Below, in pieces: positions 10,128-63,973 of a stretch of 64,000 bases of DNA. Location of the stretch: the NCBI GenBank assembly GCA_017992765.1, contig JAGOOA010000001.1, positions 128,572-192,571 on the forward strand, read 5' to 3'. Origin of the DNA: Syntrophorhabdaceae bacterium. Lineage in GTDB: Bacteria; Desulfobacterota; Syntrophorhabdia; Syntrophorhabdales; Syntrophorhabdaceae. Both the position numbers and the translations under genes were made by a program. Every line of letters starts with the position of its first letter. Position 1 is the stretch's first letter. The notes under the pieces were generated by a model. It was given only the letters and a program-made list of their open reading frames with translations, was not told the DNA's origin and searched no databases.

Positions 10128-10525
10128 CGGGATGACCTGGTGATATTGACCCGGACGGACGCCCCGGCGGTCCACGGTATCGACGAAGCTATCGAAAGGG
10201 GCAGCAGGTACAAAGAGGCGGGCGCCGACCTCATATTCATCGAGGCGCCGGTATCGGTGGAAGCGCCGATCCTCACCGCAAAGGAGATGCAGGACATATA
10301 GGGTACAGCGTCGCCACTTTCCCGCTCTCAACGATCTATGCTGCTGCCTATGGGGTAAAAGCAGTGCTGGAGGAACTCGCTGCCACCGGCACTACCGCAG
10401 GGTGTATTGACAGGATGATCGCTTTCAGCGATTTCAATGCTCTTGTGGGCCTCGCAAAGGTGAGAGAGGCAGAGGCGTTCTACTGCGCCGGCCTTTTTGA
10501 GGTCCTGCAAAAGACAAATAAATAG
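10128..10525 (+). pseudogene. Remnant of a PEP mutase/isocitrate lyase family gene
   Basis: Two pieces of one family are readable in two frames. In the first frame, up to 10298, residues read DDLVILTRTDAPAVHGIDEA and AGADLIFIEAP, the conserved middle of PEP mutase/2-methylisocitrate lyase proteins. From 10301 another frame reads GYSVATFPLSTIYAA, LEELAATGTTAG and AFSDFNALVGLAKV, their C-terminus. Removing the two bases TA at 10299-10300 restores DI-GYS. The N-terminal ~130 residues are gone and ~25 residues are deleted after the EAP motif. It follows the regulator by one base and ends 15 bases before dctP, so the operon once contained an intact lyase. Confidence 0.8.
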
Positions 10526-18831: not shown

Positions 18832-19347
18832 TTACAGCGGGGCGAAGATCATTACGATATTCCTACCGTCAAATCTCAATTTCTGCTCCAGCGCCCCTGC
18901 GTCTTTTACTGACTCGATAACCTTCTGGGCAAGTTTTTCTCCCATGTCTATATGGAGCACCTCCCTGCCCTTAAACATAATAATCACCTTGACCTTGTAC
19001 CCGTCGCCGAGAAACTCTTTCATGTGCTTCATCTTGAACGTCAGGTCATGCTCCTCGATCTTAAGGCCCAGCTTCATCTCTTTGATCTGGATCACCGCCT
19101 GTTTTTTCTTTGCCTCATGGGCCTTCTTGGCAAGCTGGTATTTGAACTTGCCGTAATCCATGATCTTGCAAACCGGCGGGTTTGTCTTGGGAGAAACCTC
19201 CACCAGGTCAAGGTCCTGTTCCCGCGCCATCCTGAGAGCTTCAACCGTTGCCACAATACCCAGCTGTTTCCCGCTGTCGTCAATGAGCCGAACCTCTCTG
19301 ACGCGTATCTTCTCATTGATATTTACGTCCTTAGTGTCCTTTCCTAT
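18832..19347 (-). CDS. infC: Translation initiation factor IF-3 (probable AUA start)
   Basis: About 171 residues. Motifs: INEKIRVREVRLIDDSGKQL at the N-terminus, VSPKTNPPVCKIMDYGKFKY in the middle, and IMFKGREVLHIDMG in the C-terminal domain. IF-3 checks the initiator tRNA and start codon on the 30S subunit. The usual short N-terminus begins at ATA 19347-19345. The Shine-Dalgarno AGGAGG (19361-19356) lies 8 bases before it, whereas the nearest canonical codon, GTG 19356, overlaps the Shine-Dalgarno itself. IF-3 genes elsewhere start with AUU and are self-regulated because IF-3 rejects non-AUG codons; an AUA start would serve the same purpose. If GTG is used the protein has three extra residues. 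Confidence 0.88.
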   Translation of the reverse strand: MGKDTKDVNINEKIRVREVRLIDDSGKQLGIVATVEALRMAREQDLDLVEVSPKTNPPVCKIMDYGKFKYQLAKKAHEAKKKQAVIQIKEMKLGLKIEEHDLTFKMKHMKEFLGDGYKVKVIIMFKGREVLHIDMGEKLAQKVIESVKDAGALEQKLRFDGRNIVMIFAPL

Positions 19348-19352
19348 AGGGC

Positions 19353-21089
19353 TCACCTCCTGAGTGTATTATCCTCATTTATCCTGCTTATGAGATCCTG
19401 TACCGTGATGTCCTTCAGCTCGGCGCCTTCTCTTGTCCTGACGGTAATGGATCTTTTCTCCATTTCCTTTTTGCCGACTATTACCATATAGGGGACCTTT
19501 TTTACAGCGCCCTCCCGTATCTTGAGGCTCAGCTTTTCATTTCTCGAGTCGGCTTCCACCCTGATGCCTTCCTGCGCCATGGCGTCATAAATCTCCCTTA
19601 CATACGGCTCCTGGTCATCGGTGATGTTCATGATCACTGCCTGCGTAGGCGACAGCCAGACCGGGAAGCGCCCGCCGTAATGTTCGATGAGGACGCCGAT
19701 GAACCGTTCGATGGCCCCGAGGACGACCCTGTGGAGCATAACGGGCCTCTTCCTTTTCCCATCGCTGTCCACGTAGTGGAGGTCAAAGCGTTCGGGAAGG
19801 GCGAAGTCGCACTGTATCGTTGCGCACTGCCATTTTCTTCCGATGGCGTCTTTCAGCTTTACGTCGATCTTGGGCCCGTAGAACGCCCCATCTCCTTCGT
19901 TTATCTCATATGGGAGCTTCTGGTCATCGAGAACTTCCTTCAACGCCTTTTCCGCCTTGTCCCAATCCTCGTCCGTGCCTATCGACTTTTCAGGCCGCGT
20001 GCTTATCTCCATCTCATAATCAAAGCCGAAGATGCCCATCACATCCTGCACAAACCGAATTATGCCCAGTATCTCCTGGTGAAGCTGGTCGGGGCGAAGG
20101 AAGATGTGGGCATCGTCCTGGGTAAACTCCCGCACCCTCATGAGGCCATGAAGGACGCCGGATTTTTCATGCCGGGATACGGTGCCGAGCTCAAAGTAGC
20201 GGAGCGGGAGGTCCCTGTAGCTCCTTACCTTTGAATTGTACACCATGATATGGGAGAGGCAGTTCATCGGCTTGATGCCGTAATCCACGTCATCTATCTT
20301 TGTAAAATACATGAAATCCCTGTAGTTGTCGAAATGGCCCGACCTTTTCCACATGTCGAGCTTCAGGATGTGAGGGCCTACTACGAACTGGTAGCCCCTC
20401 TTCAGGTGTTCCTTTCTTTCGAAGTCTTCAAGGAGGTAACGGAGCAGGGCGCCGTTCGGGTGGTATATGACAAGCCCTGCGCCGACATCATCGGAGATGC
20501 TGAAAAGCTCGAGCTCTTTGCCAAGCTTGCGGTGGTCTCTCTTTTTCACCTCTTCAAGAAAATTGAGGTATTTGTTGAGCGATTCCTCATCAGGGAAGGC
20601 TGTCCCGTATATCCTGGTGAGCATCTTGTTCTTCTCGTCGCCCCTCCAGTAAGCGCCGGCAAGGCTTAAAAGCTTGAATGCCCTTATCTTTCCTGTTGAC
20701 GGAAGGTGCGGCCCGCGGCAGAGGTCCGTAAAGGAACCCTGGGTGTAGGTATTTACTTCGGGGTCGTCGATCGCCTCCAAAAGTTCCACCTTGTATGTCT
20801 CGCCCATCTTCTCGAACATATCCATGGCCTCGTCCTTTTTCAGGACCCTTTTTTCAATAGGGATATCCTTCTTGACGAGCTCCTTCATCTTTGCCTCTAT
20901 CTTCGGCAGGTCCTCTTCGGTAAAGCCCGGTTCGTAGTCAAAATCGTAATAAAAACCATTCTCTATGGACGGCCCGATGGCCACTTTGACCCCCGGGAAA
21001 AGCTCCCGTACGGCCTGTGCCATGAGGTGGGAGGTGCTGTGGCGCAGCATCTCAAGGTCTTCTGCGGTGTGTGTTTCCTTATTTTGCAT
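19353..21089 (-). CDS. thrS: Threonyl-tRNA synthetase lacking the TGS domain
   Basis: 578 residues against about 640 for E. coli ThrS. The N-terminal TGS domain (about 60 residues) is absent; an in-frame stop lies just upstream of ATG 21089, so it is not a wrong start. The editing domain begins at once ([19 protein letters not shown] at 15-33, then [15 protein letters not shown]). The class II core has zinc ligands in [19 protein letters not shown] and PVMLHRV. The anticodon domain closes the protein ([11 protein letters not shown]). First gene of the translation cluster; its stop overlaps the Shine-Dalgarno of infC. Confidence 0.96.
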
Positions 21090-51096: not shown

Positions 51097-52125
51097 ATGG
51101 ATATAGAATTAACAAAATACGTCCGCGGAGCAGGGTGAGCGTCAAAGATAGGTCCGGGCGACCTTGCTAATATCCTTTGCGGAATAGAGATCCCGGGGGA
51201 CAAAAACGTGATAGTCGGCATAGAGGGCTTCGAGGACGCCGGCGTCTACAAGATCACCGACGAGATCGCCCTCGTCCAGACCATAGATTTTTTTACACCC
51301 ATTGTGGACGACCCCTACTGGTTCGGGCAGATCGCCGCGGCGAATGCCTTGAGCGATATATACGCCATGGGCGCCGTGCCGAAGACGGCATTGAACATGG
51401 TATGTTTTTCCCTGAAGAAATTTGATATGGCCGTTCTCAGGGAGATCATCAGGGGAGGTGTGGACAAGATACGGGAGGCGGGCGTGAGCCTCCTGGGAGG
51501 ACACAGCGTAGACGACGAAGAGATCAAGTATGGTCTTTCAGTGACCGGCGTTGTCCACCCCGACAGGGTCATCCTGAATCAAGGGGCGCTCCCCGGCGAT
51601 GTCCTGATCCTGACGAAGCCGCTCGGCACAGGCATTTTAAACACGGGGATCAAAGGGAAGATCCTCGGTGAAGGCTCTATCAAAAAATTGGTCGAGATAA
51701 TGGCGCGGCTCAACAGAAGGGCCTCGGAGGCGATGCTTTCCGTGAAAACCCACGCATGTACGGATGTAACTGGTTTCGGGCTCGCGGGCCACCTGAAGGA
51801 GATGATCGGGGAATCCATCGGCGTTGAGATATTCGGGGACAGGATCCCCTATTTCACAGAGGCGGTGGATCTCGTAAAATCCGGCTTTGCGCCCGGCGGC
51901 CTTTACAGCAACAGGGACTTCTACAAAACGCACGTTATAAGCGGCGCGCAGGACTTCTTCTACGATATTATCTTCGACCCCCAGACATCGGGCGGCCTGC
52001 TTTTCGCGGTGGCGGAGGAAGATCTGCCGTTATTTGAGAAGAACGCGAAAGGCCTGAAGGTTGACTATTGGACCATAGGGAAGTTCCTCGCGGAACCGAA
52101 AGGGAAGATATTATTAAGGCCGTAG
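51097..52125 (+). CDS. selD: Selenide, water dikinase, selenocysteine-containing
   Basis: 342 residues with Sec14 encoded by in-frame TGA at 51136-51138. The N-terminus reads M-DIELTKYVRGAG-U-ASKIGPGDL; U14 and K17 match the catalytic Cys and Lys of E. coli SelD (Cys17, Lys20). AGGAG lies before ATG 51097. Downstream: DEIALVQTIDFFTPIVDDPY, GVSLLGGHSVDDEEIKYGLS, TDVTGFGLAGHLKEM and DPQTSGGLLFAV. It makes selenophosphate from selenide and ATP. A hairpin 12 bases after the TGA fits a bacterial SECIS. Ordinary gene callers would start it at ATG 51208 and lose 37 residues with the active site. Confidence 0.93.
51150..51164 (+). promoter_or_regulatory. Putative bacterial SECIS hairpin in selD
   Basis: AGGTC (51150-51154), loop CGGGC, GACCT (51160-51164), starting 12 bases after the Sec TGA. 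Position and stem-loop size fit the SelB-binding element of bacterial selenoprotein mRNAs. Lower stem pairing is not obvious by eye. Confidence 0.55.
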
Positions 52126-53696: not shown

Positions 53697-54403
53697 ATTT
53701 GCCCTCCGGTATTTATTTTGATGATCAATTCATTATCGTTGTTGAAGATAGTCTTTGGCGGTATCGATGTTTTGATGTCCGTCCTGCCGGGGGCATGTCC
53801 ATTGCTCCCGTATTGTATTGTGTACCTGATCTTTTTCATTTCCATTTCATCCAGCAGTGCGTCTATGTTGGCATCCGTCATGACAGGCAGCATATAGAAA
53901 GGCCTTTGTGCGCTCCCCACGACGAGGGTTACCCCGCCCTGTTCGAGAATGGTGCTGCCCCCCTTTGGCACCTGGGCTATCACCCTTCCTGTTTTTTCAT
54001 GCGGTATATATATGGTTTTCCTGATGGTGATAAGCTTTTCGCCAAGTATCTCGGCAGCCTTTTCCAACGGTTGGCCCGTAAGGGCCGGCACTTCAACGAG
54101 CTGGGGGCCCTCTGAGACGATGACGTAGAGTATCCTGCCCTTCCTGATGGCAATGTTTGCGTCCGGTTTTTGTACGGTAATATGGTTGTACGGGACGTCG
54201 TTTCTTCTTTCATAGCGGAGGATGATCAGGCTAAGCCCTTTGTTCCTGGCCATCTCTTTTGCCTCCTCGACCTTTTTCCCTCTCACGTCGGGGCACACGG
54301 TGGTCTCCTGCCCCTTGAGAACTATGTCAATGGTAAAATACATGGACAAGATAAATGCCGATATGGGGACAAGGAAGTAGAGTGAGTTTTTAAGCCACTT
54401 CAT
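53693..54403 (-). CDS. Membrane-anchored PASTA-domain protein
   Basis: 236 residues. One N-terminal membrane helix (about 6-28: LYFLVPISAFILSMYF) is followed by three PASTA modules of about 68 residues (TVCPDVRGKKVEEAKEMARN, VEVPALTGQPLEKAAEILGE, YMLPVMTDANIDALLDEMEM). There is no kinase or transpeptidase domain. PASTA modules sense muropeptides or the cell wall. The rsmB-PASTA-rpe order is known from other deltaproteobacteria; both junctions overlap by four bases. Confidence 0.85.
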   Translation of the reverse strand: MKWLKNSLYFLVPISAFILSMYFTIDIVLKGQETTVCPDVRGKKVEEAKEMARNKGLSLIILRYERRNDVPYNHITVQKPDANIAIRKGRILYVIVSEGPQLVEVPALTGQPLEKAAEILGEKLITIRKTIYIPHEKTGRVIAQVPKGGSTILEQGGVTLVVGSAQRPFYMLPVMTDANIDALLDEMEMKKIRYTIQYGSNGHAPGRTDIKTSIPPKTIFNNDNELIIKINTGGQI

Positions 54404-55686
54404 AATTTTCTCAGTTTAGCGATAAAGAACCCGTCCATGCCTGTCTCGTGCGGAAGCGATAAAAAGTATTCCTTATTAAACAGAAACGGCAAGGGATTTT
54501 CAAGGGTAAACTTCTCCGACCTTCTGAGCCTTTCAATGACGCCCGTCGTTTCCTCCGGCTCGAAGGAGCAGACGCTGTACACCATGCGGCCGCCTGTTTT
54601 CAGGGTGCCCCAGAGGGTTTTAAGCAGCTGCACCTGGGAGTCGCCAAGCGCGCTGATGTCTTTTTCCCTTTTGTGCCATTTGATCTCAGGGTGCTTGCGT
54701 ATGATCCCGAGCGATGAACAGGGCGCGTCGACCAGTATAACGTCGAAGGATCCTTCTCTGAAAGGAGGGCGTGATGCATCGCCGAGAACGCGGTTTCCTT
54801 CGTTGCGGACAAGCTCCAGCCTTTTGGCCTCCCTGTCCATTGAGACTATCAACGCATGTGCTGCAATGTCCTTTATATGATGGGTCTTTGTCCCTGAACC
54901 CGCGCAGGCATCAAGTATCCTATCCCCCGCCCGTGGGACGATGGACAGGCTGACAAGCTGGGACGCCTCGTCCTGGACCGTTACCATGCCATGTTGAAAC
55001 AGCCTGTGCTTCAAAACCGGCGTCAGCTTTCCGACATGCAGGGCGGCCGGCGATAAAACTCCTCTCTTTGTCTCTATGCCGTCCTTTTCGAGCTGCCTGG
55101 CCGCTTCCTCAACAGAGATCTTCTTTTCGTTCACCCGGAGCGCAAAGTCGGGTGTTTTGTTGAGGGCGGTAAGAAGCTCTGTGGTTTTTTGCCTGCCGAA
55201 CCTTTTATGCCATCTTACCGTGATCCATTCAGGGAAGGAATGCCGGACCGACAGGTTGTCTGCAACAAGCCGCGAGGTCCCGCCGTCCCGGAGGGCATCT
55301 CTGTCTCTCAGGTACTGCCGTAAAATCGCGTTGATGAAATTTGCGGCTCCCTTCCCTTTCTCCTTTTTCACGTAGCTTACGACCTCGTTGACAACATGGT
55401 ACGGGGCTTTTTGCATGAAGGATATCTGATAAAGGCTGAGCCACAACAGGTACCGCAGGTCGCTCCCGATAGGCCTTTTCGTGTAAAGGGAGAGGGCCCA
55501 GTTAAAATATGACTTCCATCGTATCGCCCCCGCGGCCATCTCGTATATAAGCCCTTTTTGCGATTCCGGCAAAGGGTGCTTTGAAAAAAAATAGCCTATG
55601 GCCTCATCAAGAAATGCGCCTTTTTCAACCTTCTTAATGATCCTGACGGACAGCTCCCGTGCGGCGTTTGCGGAATTATCTTCTAT
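54400..55686 (-). CDS. rsmB: 16S rRNA m5C967 methyltransferase RsmB (probable AUA start)
   Basis: 428 residues if begun at ATA 55686. The NusB-like N-terminal domain (ARELSVRIIKKVEKGAFLDE, then GLIYEMAAGAIRWK) is present in frame, but no ATG, GTG or TTG occurs between the upstream in-frame stop (55722) and TTG 55572, which would cut into that domain. ATA 55686 has GGAGG nine bases upstream and gives normal RsmB length. Catalytic parts: SAM site ILDACAGSGTKTHHI, DAPCSSLGIIRKHPE and YSVCSFEPEE with the two active-site Cys. It overlaps the end of htpX. Confidence 0.88.
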   Translation of the reverse strand: MEDNSANAARELSVRIIKKVEKGAFLDEAIGYFFSKHPLPESQKGLIYEMAAGAIRWKSYFNWALSLYTKRPIGSDLRYLLWLSLYQISFMQKAPYHVVNEVVSYVKKEKGKGAANFINAILRQYLRDRDALRDGGTSRLVADNLSVRHSFPEWITVRWHKRFGRQKTTELLTALNKTPDFALRVNEKKISVEEAARQLEKDGIETKRGVLSPAALHVGKLTPVLKHRLFQHGMVTVQDEASQLVSLSIVPRAGDRILDACAGSGTKTHHIKDIAAHALIVSMDREAKRLELVRNEGNRVLGDASRPPFREGSFDVILVDAPCSSLGIIRKHPEIKWHKREKDISALGDSQVQLLKTLWGTLKTGGRMVYSVCSFEPEETTGVIERLRRSEKFTLENPLPFLFNKEYFLSLPHETGMDGFFIAKLRKL

Positions 55687-56530
55687 GTGCCATATCCTCC
55701 AATCTCTTGATACGCTCTTCTATTGGAGGATGAGTGCTGAAAAGAGACAGGATGCCTTTTGCGCTGAAGGGGTTGACGATGAACAGCGGCGCCGTTGAAG
55801 GATTCGCATCGTTCATCGGGGTGCGTGCGACACCGGCGTGAAGCTTTTTTAATGCACCGGAAAGAAAGAGCGGGTTCCCGGAAAGCCTCGCGCCGCCGTC
55901 GTCGGCAAGATACTCTCTGGACCGCGAAATTGCAAGCTGTATAAGCATAGCGGCAAAAGCGGCGATCATGGAAAAGATGATCACGCTGAAGATGTTGCCT
56001 CCACCTTCGTCGTCGTCACTGTGTGAACCGCCGAAGAATGCTGCGAAGCGCGCTATGTTCGCGATCATCGTAATCGCCCCCGCGAGCGTTGCGGCAACGC
56101 TCTGGATCAGGATGTCCCTGTGCTTTATGTGCGATATCTCGTGCGCGAGGACGCCCTCCAGCTCGTCCCTGCTCAGTATTCTCATGATGCCCGTCGTAAC
56201 GGCGACGACCCCGTGGGACGGGTCCCTTCCTGTCGCAAATGCGTTCGGGCTGTCATTCTCTATGATATAGACCTTCGGCATTGGTATGGACGCCTTCTGG
56301 GCAAGAGACGCAATTGCGGCGTATAGCTGAGGGGCCTCGTTCTCCGAGACCTGCTTTGCCCTATACATGGCGAGGACGATCCTGTCGGAAAACCAGTAGC
56401 TCACAAAATTCATAACAACAGCAATGGAAAAGGCTATATATGCGCCTGAACTTCCTCCGATCATGCTTCCAATGGCGACAAATATTACTGTCAGCACCAC
56501 CATCAGAAAAAATGTCTTTGCCTGATTCAT
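55676..56530 (-). CDS. htpX: HtpX-type zinc metalloprotease
   Basis: 284 residues. Two N-terminal membrane helices (about 7-50), zinc motif HEISHIKHRD (near 131), a second hydrophobic pair near 150-200, and the third ligand region REYLADDGGA near 210. Membrane-protein quality control. The ATG has GGAGGCACGA upstream. The 3' end overlaps the rsmB start and supplies its Shine-Dalgarno. Confidence 0.93.
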   Translation of the reverse strand: MNQAKTFFLMVVLTVIFVAIGSMIGGSSGAYIAFSIAVVMNFVSYWFSDRIVLAMYRAKQVSENEAPQLYAAIASLAQKASIPMPKVYIIENDSPNAFATGRDPSHGVVAVTTGIMRILSRDELEGVLAHEISHIKHRDILIQSVAATLAGAITMIANIARFAAFFGGSHSDDDEGGGNIFSVIIFSMIAAFAAMLIQLAISRSREYLADDGGARLSGNPLFLSGALKKLHAGVARTPMNDANPSTAPLFIVNPFSAKGILSLFSTHPPIEERIKRLEDMAHRR

Positions 56531-61512: not shown

Positions 61513-62358
61513 CTACTCATCGGTTACCTTCAGGAAAGAAACGCCGAGCCCTCCCGGACCGACATGGGATGCGATCACGCCGCCGATCTTGCCCCGGTAG
61601 ACAAGGGAAAGGCCGGGAATTTTCAGGAACCTCTGAAGCAGCTCGGTCGCAGCTTCGCCGTTCCCAATGTCTGCCATTGACAGCAGGATGTGCGAATGCC
61701 CTCCGGCTTCTTCTCCCACGATCTCCACAAACCGGTTCAGCAGCCTCTCGGTGGTGCGTATCTTCTCGACAGGCAGGACCTCCCCTTCCACTAAGTGCAA
61801 GAGAGGCTTTACCTTCATGAGAGCGCCCAGGAAGGCCTGGGCCTTTCCTATCCTGCCTCCCCGCTGCAGATAATCTAAAGAATCGACGGAAAAGTAGGTC
61901 TCCACCTTCCGGGCGAGTTCTCCGGCAAAGCCTGCCACATCTTCAAAGGAAGCCCCCCGGTTGGCCTTCCTGGCGCATAACAGAATGATCAGGCCAAGCC
62001 CCATAGAGGCCTGGAGGGAATCCACCACCTCTATCCGGGCGCCGGGGAAGTGGTCTTTGGCAAGGAGCGCGGACTGGTAGGTGCCGCTCAGTCTTGACGC
62101 AAGATTCACGCAGAGCACAGGCTCACCCTGTGCAGCGAAGGGGGCGAAGGCGTTGATAAAATCCTGGGGAGATGGCTGCGATGTCGTCGGGAAGTCCGTT
62201 GACCTTCTCAAGAGCGAACAGTATTCATCGGGCTGGATCTCATAAAAGTCCTTCCAGCTTTTTTCTCCCAGGTGAATGGTCAGCGGTACGATGCCTATAT
62301 CGTATTCCTGTACCAGGTCCTGCGGCAGGTCAACAGTGCTGTCTGTAATGATCTTTAT
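61513..62358 (-). CDS. fakB: DegV-family fatty acid-binding protein FakB (probable AUA start)
   Basis: 281 residues from ATA 62358. The N-terminus KIITDSTVDLPQDLV is the conserved DegV start, yet upstream of it there is only ATA before an in-frame TAG; the first canonical start is TTG 62211, which would delete 49 residues including that motif. AAGGAG lies five bases before the ATA. Other signatures: DFPTTSQPSPQDF, NLASRLSGTYQSA and VGPGGLGVSFL. It binds a fatty acid for phosphorylation by FakA, encoded 13 bases upstream. Confidence 0.88.
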   Translation of the reverse strand: MKIITDSTVDLPQDLVQEYDIGIVPLTIHLGEKSWKDFYEIQPDEYCSLLRRSTDFPTTSQPSPQDFINAFAPFAAQGEPVLCVNLASRLSGTYQSALLAKDHFPGARIEVVDSLQASMGLGLIILLCARKANRGASFEDVAGFAGELARKVETYFSVDSLDYLQRGGRIGKAQAFLGALMKVKPLLHLVEGEVLPVEKIRTTERLLNRFVEIVGEEAGGHSHILLSMADIGNGEAATELLQRFLKIPGLSLVYRGKIGGVIASHVGPGGLGVSFLKVTDE

Positions 62359-62371
62359 GGCCTCTCCTTTC

Positions 62372-63973
62372 CTACTCTACCGAAATGATATATTGTGCAT
62401 ACGGCTGCCCGCCGTAATAGAGCTCAACTGTTTTGCCGTTAAAACGCTGCTGCATCTCTGCCTGTAATTCTTCCGCATCCTGCTTTCCGATAGGATCACC
62501 ATAAAAAAGGGTGATGATCTCGTCGGCGGCATCGAGCATGGACGCCGCAAGGTTCATAACGGCCTCTCCCGCAGATGCTGAAGAGCACCGGATCTCGCCC
62601 CTGTAGATGCCTATCGAATCGCCGGGTTTGACCTCGACATCCCCTGTGGTGACGCTTCTCGACGCCTGCGCCACCTCCCCGCTTTTCACGCCTTTCCATG
62701 CCCCTTCCATGTTGCTGATATTCTTCTCAAAGGAGGCGTCGTCCATATAGGCCAGCAATGCGGACAGGCCTTCCGGGGCAGATGATGTCCTCAAGACCCT
62801 GACCTCCTTTGACGTCATATCCGCTGCCTGTATCGCCGCAGGGTAGACGTTTTTATGGTTGGGCAGGACTATCACGTTCGATGACTCCACCGTCTCTATT
62901 GCGGACACGATGTCAGATGTGCTTGGGTTTTGGGTCGGACCTCCGTCTATCACAAGCTCGCTGCCAGCGTTATAGAATATCTCCTTGAAGCCGTCGCCCA
63001 GCACGACAGCAACGACGGAGGTGGCCTTTTTGCTCTTCCGGTCAGAAAAGCGCGACGTATGCTGAACGAGCATATCGTCCACTTTGATCGACGAGACCTG
63101 TCCCAGGGAAGAGGCGTAACGCAGGACCTCGTCGGGCTGGCCGGTATGGATATGTATCCTCGCGAGGCGAGTATCTCCTACCAGTATGATGGAATCGCCC
63201 ATCCTGACAAGATTCTCTTTTATGTCATCCCCCGAGATCTGGCTTCCCTTGAGGATGAACTCTGTACAATAGCGGTAGTTCCAGTGATGCTCCACCGGCT
63301 CGGCCGCCGCGCCGTCGAGCTCATCTTCGTCGTTGATGACTGCGCCGGTATTCAAGGTGCCTCGGATCAGGCGCACCATACCCTCCAGGAAATAGAAGAA
63401 GCCAAGCCCCCCCGCGTCAACGACGCCGGCCTCTTTCAGCTTCGGGAGGAGAAGCGGTGTCCGCTCCACGGAAGACCACGCTGCCTTGCCCATCTCGTCA
63501 AGAAGGACTGCGAGGTCCTGCTCGGTCCTGACAACCCTCTCCGCGGCCTCCGCCGTCTCCCGGACAACGGTGAGGATCGTCCCCTCTGCCGGATGGAGGA
63601 TCGCCTTATATGCCTTCTGCACGGCGCAGGAAAAGGCGAAAACAATGTCTGCCGCGAAGATACGTTCCCGCCCCTCTATCGCTTCGGCCATCCCTGCCAG
63701 GATCTGTGCCAGAATGATCCCGGAATTGCCCCTGGCACCCATCAATGATCCCCAGGCTGCAGCCTTGACGGTCGTTTCCAGGGAGACCTCCTGCAGGGCC
63801 TCGATCTCGCGGACGGCGGCGATGAGCGTCATGGACATATTGCTCCCCGTATCACCATCCGGTACGGGAAATACGTTGATCTTGTTCAGGTGGCTGCGGT
63901 TGCTTAACACCCAGTCCGCCCCGGCCAGGATAACCTGCTTAAAACGCTTTGCGCCGCAATAGAGTATTGCCAT
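62372..63973 (-). CDS. fakA: Fatty acid kinase FakA-like (DAK2/YloV family)
   Basis: 533 residues. N-terminal DAK2 ATP-binding domain: NVFPVPDGDTGSNMSMTL (34-51, Asp cluster for Mg) and WGSLMGARGNSGIILAQILA near 74. A middle domain follows, then a C-terminal region (VIVLPNHKNVYPAA near 370). With FakB it phosphorylates fatty acids to acyl-phosphates. First readable gene of the operon; ATG 63973 lies 27 bases from the window edge, so its promoter may be outside. Confidence 0.9.
   Translation of the reverse strand: MAILYCGAKRFKQVILAGADWVLSNRSHLNKINVFPVPDGDTGSNMSMTLIAAVREIEALQEVSLETTVKAAAWGSLMGARGNSGIILAQILAGMAEAIEGRERIFAADIVFAFSCAVQKAYKAILHPAEGTILTVVRETAEAAERVVRTEQDLAVLLDEMGKAAWSSVERTPLLLPKLKEAGVVDAGGLGFFYFLEGMVRLIRGTLNTGAVINDEDELDGAAAEPVEHHWNYRYCTEFILKGSQISGDDIKENLVRMGDSIILVGDTRLARIHIHTGQPDEVLRYASSLGQVSSIKVDDMLVQHTSRFSDRKSKKATSVVAVVLGDGFKEIFYNAGSELVIDGGPTQNPSTSDIVSAIETVESSNVIVLPNHKNVYPAAIQAADMTSKEVRVLRTSSAPEGLSALLAYMDDASFEKNISNMEGAWKGVKSGEVAQASRSVTTGDVEVKPGDSIGIYRGEIRCSSASAGEAVMNLAASMLDAADEIITLFYGDPIGKQDAEELQAEMQQRFNGKTVELYYGGQPYAQYIISVE

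Follow-up and report, generated by a model that had tools for sequence, protein, structure and literature searches.

Near-cognate start codons have been described for a handful of bacterial genes. In Staphylococcus aureus, AUA serves as the start codon of infC, ccpN, and citZ, and the non-canonical fusions tested yielded about 10% of the AUG output, with ccpN reaching up to 30% in rich medium (PMC13009471). In Streptomyces, sigR has a GTC start and is repressed by IF3 (PMC5472188). With regard to the ribosome, C967 of the 16S rRNA stacks together with G966 on C34 of the initiator tRNA, and the loss of RsmB relaxes initiation (PMC7949028); HflX splits 70S ribosomes, and IF3 stops the free 30S subunits from rejoining the 50S (PMC9067457). 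Both AUA starts and the control of near-cognate starts by IF3 are already known.

Here we describe AUA starts in a 64-kb window and elsewhere in the same 2.42-Mb draft genome of 71 contigs, which belongs to an uncultured Syntrophorhabdaceae bacterium (order Syntrophorhabdales) and whose named neighbors are Syntrophorhabdus sp. PtaU1.Bin058 and UBA genomes. The genes resemble those of S. aureus (PMC13009471) in their AUA start and extended Shine-Dalgarno (SD) sequence, in having infC in common, and in a presumed low output relative to AUG; however, they belong to another phylum, include hflX, rsmB, fakB, and a radical-SAM gene, and are described from evolutionary evidence. As for infC and pcnB of Escherichia coli, which both start at AUU, the start is an AUN near-cognate of the type discriminated by IF3 and the logic of infC autoregulation would apply, whereas the codon is AUA and the gene set is larger, different, and kept across the order. 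The likeness to sigR (PMC5472188) lies in a non-canonical start, which there couples a gene other than infC to IF3 by experiment; the sigR codon is GUC and its product a stress sigma factor, while the present case is sequence-based. Searches of a literature library found no paper on a non-canonical hflX start and none on start-codon use in Syntrophorhabdales.

The fakB start codon at the locus and in the genus

Reading of the locus bore out the proposal of an earlier note that fakB, encoding a DegV-family protein, begins at ATA with AAGGAG and an in-frame TAG 5′ of it (Table 1). The minus-strand leader reads TAG AGT AGG AAA GGA GAG GCC ATA AAG ATC ATT ACA GAC AGC, with zero ATG, GTG, or TTG codons between the in-frame TAG and the ATA. 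Downstream, the frame first offers a canonical codon at TTG 62211 (codon 50), and a start there would remove the first 49 residues, including the conserved ITDST strand. The note had also described a full-length DegV match, which was confirmed at 286.7 bits against TIGR00762 (cut-off 99.7) over profile positions 1-275 of 276, with solved DegV/FakB chains in the PDB matching the product from residue 1. Of the span it had assigned, 61513-62374, the end at 61513 stands, while 62374 falls 16 bases 5′ of this codon and the coding sequence (CDS) reaches 62358. Against the FakB1 equivalog NF038249, the product scored 170.7 bits, below the curated cut-off of 350; a suitable name is thus DegV-family, FakB-like. 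In keeping with a FakA-FakB pairing, fakB adjoins the gene of a FakA-like DAK2 protein, which scored 549.4 bits against TIGR03599 (cut-off 396.1) and stayed under the FakA equivalog cut-off (383 vs 975). The locus resembles the described FakB/DegV family (TIGR00762, NF038249) in placing a full-length DegV-family sequence beside a FakA-like YloV gene, and differs from it in the missed FakB1 cut-off and the AUA start.

When the genus was compared, the fakB ATA was found at the identical position in six of the seven species-level genomes, at 85-98% protein identity; the exception was G005, which has ATG. No canonical start was found between the in-frame stop and the ATA or ATG in any of the seven, and in the congeners with ATA the stop lies 7-23 codons upstream. 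The A/G-rich SD element was kept among the genus members, while the first downstream canonical codon varied by species (codon 16, 24, or 50). The recurrence of the same codon at the same position shows that the start is neither chance nor a sequencing error. Outside the genus, the aligned start was ATG in G012, UBA1163, and G039 and GTG in G016. Since these nearest outside relatives have ATG or GTG, the fakB ATA is most simply read as a derived state, which would represent a recent, genus-level change.

Table 1. Positions of the start codons, SD sequences, and genes in the 64-kb window
Feature	Position in window	Strand	Basis
fakB (DegV family) ATA start codon	62358..62356	minus	locus reading and genus comparison
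fakB SD AAGGAG, 5 nt gap to ATA	62369..62364	minus	locus reading
In-frame TAG, seven codons 5′ of fakB ATA	62379..62377	minus	locus reading
fakB CDS, 281 aa counted from ATA	61513-62358	minus	TIGR00762 and PDB matches
fakA-like gene (YloV DAK2-fusion family), ATG start, 5′ of fakB	62372..63973	minus	TIGR03599
infC ATA start codon	19347..19345	minus	7/7 genus members; 17 ATA and 1 ATT of 18 genomes in order
infC CDS, 171 aa from ATA (IF3)	18832..19347	minus	TIGR00168, 212.8 bits (cut-off 60)
infC SD AGGAGGTGA, 5 nt before ATA	19353..19361	minus	locus reading
rsmB ATA start codon, within 3′ end of htpX	55686..55684	minus	genus and order comparison
rsmB CDS, 428 aa from ATA (16S rRNA C967 methyltransferase)	54400..55686	minus	NF011494, TIGR00563
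htpX	55676..56530	minus	NF002826, 383.7 bits (cut-off 369)

Near-cognate starts of infC, hflX, and rsmB across the order

The ATA starts that the earlier note had given for infC and rsmB were likewise upheld by comparison within the genus. For infC, as would be expected at the center of an IF3 regulon, a near-cognate start was found in every genome read, and ATT replaced ATA in a single relative (Table 1). A GTG inside the infC SD, three codons 5′ of the ATA and in frame in this genome, was considered as the true start and ruled out, since it is in frame in 14 of the 18 relatives and out of frame in the other four (G001, G006, G009, and G042) and thus cannot be the general start. Due to this in-frame GTG, a gene caller would slightly extend infC; the note's expectation that callers would truncate fakB, infC, and rsmB alike therefore holds for fakB and rsmB, while infC would be mis-started in the opposite direction. 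Callers restricted to ATG, GTG, and TTG mis-start infC, hflX, and rsmB across the lineage.

As judged by genome comparison, hflX is the most strongly conserved AUA-start case of the set. Its ATA is located outside the window (L208:1501, equivalent to G000:C11:47890) and was found in 34 of 34 clear genomes from 15 genera and 3 families, with a search pattern that left the first codon open to ATN, GTN, and TTN alike and gave no recognizable match in 11 of 46 genomes. G024, in which the sequence reads VMMYGNTAGL, is a probable ATG exception, and G090, from an outgroup family, has ATG at the position of the ATA. Within the genus, the ATA was retained in 6/6 genomes despite otherwise diverged upstream sequence, and a purine-rich SD was positioned 8-14 nt 5′ of the ATA in 28/28 cases, again with the rest of the upstream sequence diverged. 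As ATA accounts for only 29% of the Ile codons in the genome, the invariant hflX ATA is not ordinary Ile codon usage. An ATT start of hflX in family f22 was considered as a second lineage and set aside, as canonical codons lie upstream in frame and the ATT is probably internal. For infC, hflX, and rsmB, the start codons outside the genus were read from pattern matches, which diverged N-termini escape.

The rsmB product scored 332.8 bits against NF011494 (cut-off 319) and 293.4 against TIGR00563 (cut-off 269), and its start, preceded by GGAGG at 9 nt, was ATA in all six readable genus members. Across the order, where rsmB was identified by position and first residues (often [E/G]DN.G) rather than by whole sequence, 18 of 33 genomes had ATA as the start and the other 15 had ATC. 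The last codons of htpX, CAT AGA AGA TAA, overlap the rsmB start (window 55676-55700, minus strand), and the htpX end reads Y/H-R-R-stop. An htpX Arg or Leu codon begins with the third base of the rsmB start, and the alternation of ATA and ATC tracks this codon (AGA vs CGN/CTC). The third start base is fixed by the htpX codon, which ties the rsmB start to the overlap; the non-canonical start may thus be a by-product of that overlap.

For fakB, hflX, and rsmB, all readable genus loci combined an aligned N-terminus at the near-cognate codon with no canonical start back to the in-frame stop, and an SD at proper spacing was found for these three genes and for infC. The nearly invariant hflX AUA, the rsmB AUA/AUC, and the infC AUA/AUU form a small, named, testable, and functionally linked gene set.

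Frequency of AUA starts in the genome

A screen of 2.06 Mb (85% of the genome) containing 1,822 coding open reading frames (ORFs) was performed. An unsupervised EM start model with no codon prior placed ATG at 21×, TTG at 5×, and GTG at 2.7× background, and found no excess of ATA (0.9× codon background); this estimate is noisy, since rare codons accumulate at the edge of the coding region. Among ORFs with coding signal far 5′ of any canonical start, ATA was found at fakB, rsmB, hflX, and a radical-SAM gene, and infC was added by reading its locus rather than from this screen, which can miss AUA genes that have a canonical codon close downstream. In total, about five strong cases (approximately 0.3% of genes) were identified. 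The wider scan that the note had called for thus recovered hflX and the radical-SAM gene as new cases, but its suggestion that AUA is a regular minor start codon of this genome was not sustained; with about five cases in 85% of the genome, the three within 64 kb form a local cluster. The radical-SAM gene (G000:C7:23824; L201) has ATA after GGAGGTG in three of the seven congeners and, in the other four genus genomes, ATG two codons further on.

Comparison with the congener G004 revealed no hidden ATA start beyond rsmB and fakB among 342 genes with matches, and no credible ATG/ATA exchange among 276 orthologue starts. The remaining ATA matches appear fortuitous, being located either 5′ of an ordinary start or within a degenerate ORF. 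A match at selD was rejected as a hidden ATA start, as it reflects an upstream selenocysteine TGA. This selD (window 51097-52125, plus strand) encodes selenocysteine, with ATG at 51097 and an in-frame TGA at 51136 (MDIELTKYVRGAGUASKIGPGD).

Initiation machinery and alternative readings

The initiator tRNA offers no special reader of AUA. A changed initiator, for which the note had proposed a comparison with relatives, was not found: the anticodon is an ordinary CAU, the loop CTCATAA is of the normal kind across the family, and the normal anticodon arm GGGCTCATAACCC was present in 33 of 39 family genomes, among them the one under study (C62:3-21, at a contig end). Two CAT tRNAs labeled Met by ARAGORN are not initiators, as judged by their acceptor stems. 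With a normal initiator anticodon, CAU must decode AUA through a mismatch at position 3. Starts of this kind are weak, and studies of other bacteria show that IF3 restrains them. The parallel comparison of IF3 did reveal a difference, with K replacing the R131 of E. coli in 7/7 genus members, but the change is conservative; R131 is a site of fidelity mutants. A search for mRNA structure hiding the starts found none stronger than in shuffled sequences.

We consider it probable, with room for doubt, that fakB is translated from AUA with a low, IF3-sensitive output, and that it is a later addition to an ancestral feedback set of infC, hflX, and rsmB. A strong SD helix would set the fakB AUA in the P site, where the CAU initiator tRNA would read it through a C-A mismatch at the third codon position, and output would be low and dependent on the 30S subunit and on the strictness of IF3 toward near-cognate starts. 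We infer that AUA is used to keep expression low and IF3-sensitive. In the order, the ancestral set would comprise infC (IF3), hflX (the ribosome-splitting GTPase), and rsmB (the 16S C967 methylase), whose AUA-type starts suggest a feedback control of start-codon strictness; lower initiation stringency would lead to more synthesis of the factors that restore stringency or refill the pool of free 30S subunits. Such an IF3-sensed set is plausible because each of the three proteins (IF3, HflX, and RsmB) has a role in initiation fidelity or ribosome recycling, and we infer their co-regulation by start-codon stringency. The note's suggestion of a possible regulon set by IF-3 gains indirect support from the order-wide AUA, AUC, or AUU starts of the three genes. 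fakB and, in three congeners, the radical-SAM gene would have gained AUA later, within the genus. The regulation of fakB by IF3 is the weakest link in this explanation, because its AUA is limited to one genus of which one member has ATG. The simplest and, in our view, most likely role for the codon would be a reduction of FakB output in relation to that of the FakA-like protein encoded upstream; alternatively, it would have no role.

The latter alternative, that the fakB AUA is a tolerated G-to-A transition of an ancestral AUG for which a strong SD suffices and which has no regulatory role, has a real though lesser chance of being correct. The ATG or GTG of outside relatives, the ATG of congener G005, and the strength of the fakB SD are all consistent with it, as are the similarly recent ATG/ATA polymorphism of the radical-SAM gene and the precedent of S. 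aureus citZ, whose AUA is confined to one strain lineage (PMC13009471). Yet the ATA has been kept in six of seven species-level genomes, although one transition would restore ATG, and the order-wide hflX AUA is left unexplained. Translation from a downstream canonical codon or an unseen upstream site is very unlikely; although no canonical start precedes TTG 62211 in the frame, its use would cost the 49 conserved residues, the corresponding codon differs among species, and no canonical upstream start exists in any of the seven genus genomes. Even less likely is a recoding of AUA as a general start via a changed initiator tRNA or a relaxed IF3. The existence of several AUA-start genes and the IF3 substitution point in this direction, but they are opposed by the normal initiator loop, by the service of ATA as an ordinary Ile codon, by the rarity of AUA starts among the 1,822 ORFs, and by the unexchanged G000-G004 orthologue starts. 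An assembly or sequencing error could be suspected in a metagenome-assembled draft, but it has next to no likelihood and is refuted by the presence of the same codon in independently assembled genomes.

Beyond the preferred reading of fakB as an AUA-started gene, we tentatively propose that infC, rsmB, and hflX may form an order-wide homeostat of initiation stringency, in which a loss of stringency would raise all three. Both IF3 and the methylation of C967 by RsmB would control the rejection of AUA while themselves depending on AUA or AUC starts; C967 stacks on C34, the initiator base that faces codon position 3, and HflX, the one kept on AUA in particular, splits 70S ribosomes and thereby supplies the free 30S subunits held by IF3.

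Three further ORFs were recorded. A korA-like gene for the alpha subunit of a 2-oxoacid:acceptor oxidoreductase (G000:C6:36119, minus strand) has an apparent CTG start after GGAGG. An ORF at window 10136-10525 (plus strand) has no plausible start and is possibly frameshifted or a remnant, its C-terminal part resembling a lyase/mutase (IGYSVATFPLSTIYAAAYGV). The frame of a peroxiredoxin-like ORF (G000:C63:59684, minus strand) opens right after a stop codon (PTELAAVAVKYEEIK), and its product is probably a selenocysteine protein.
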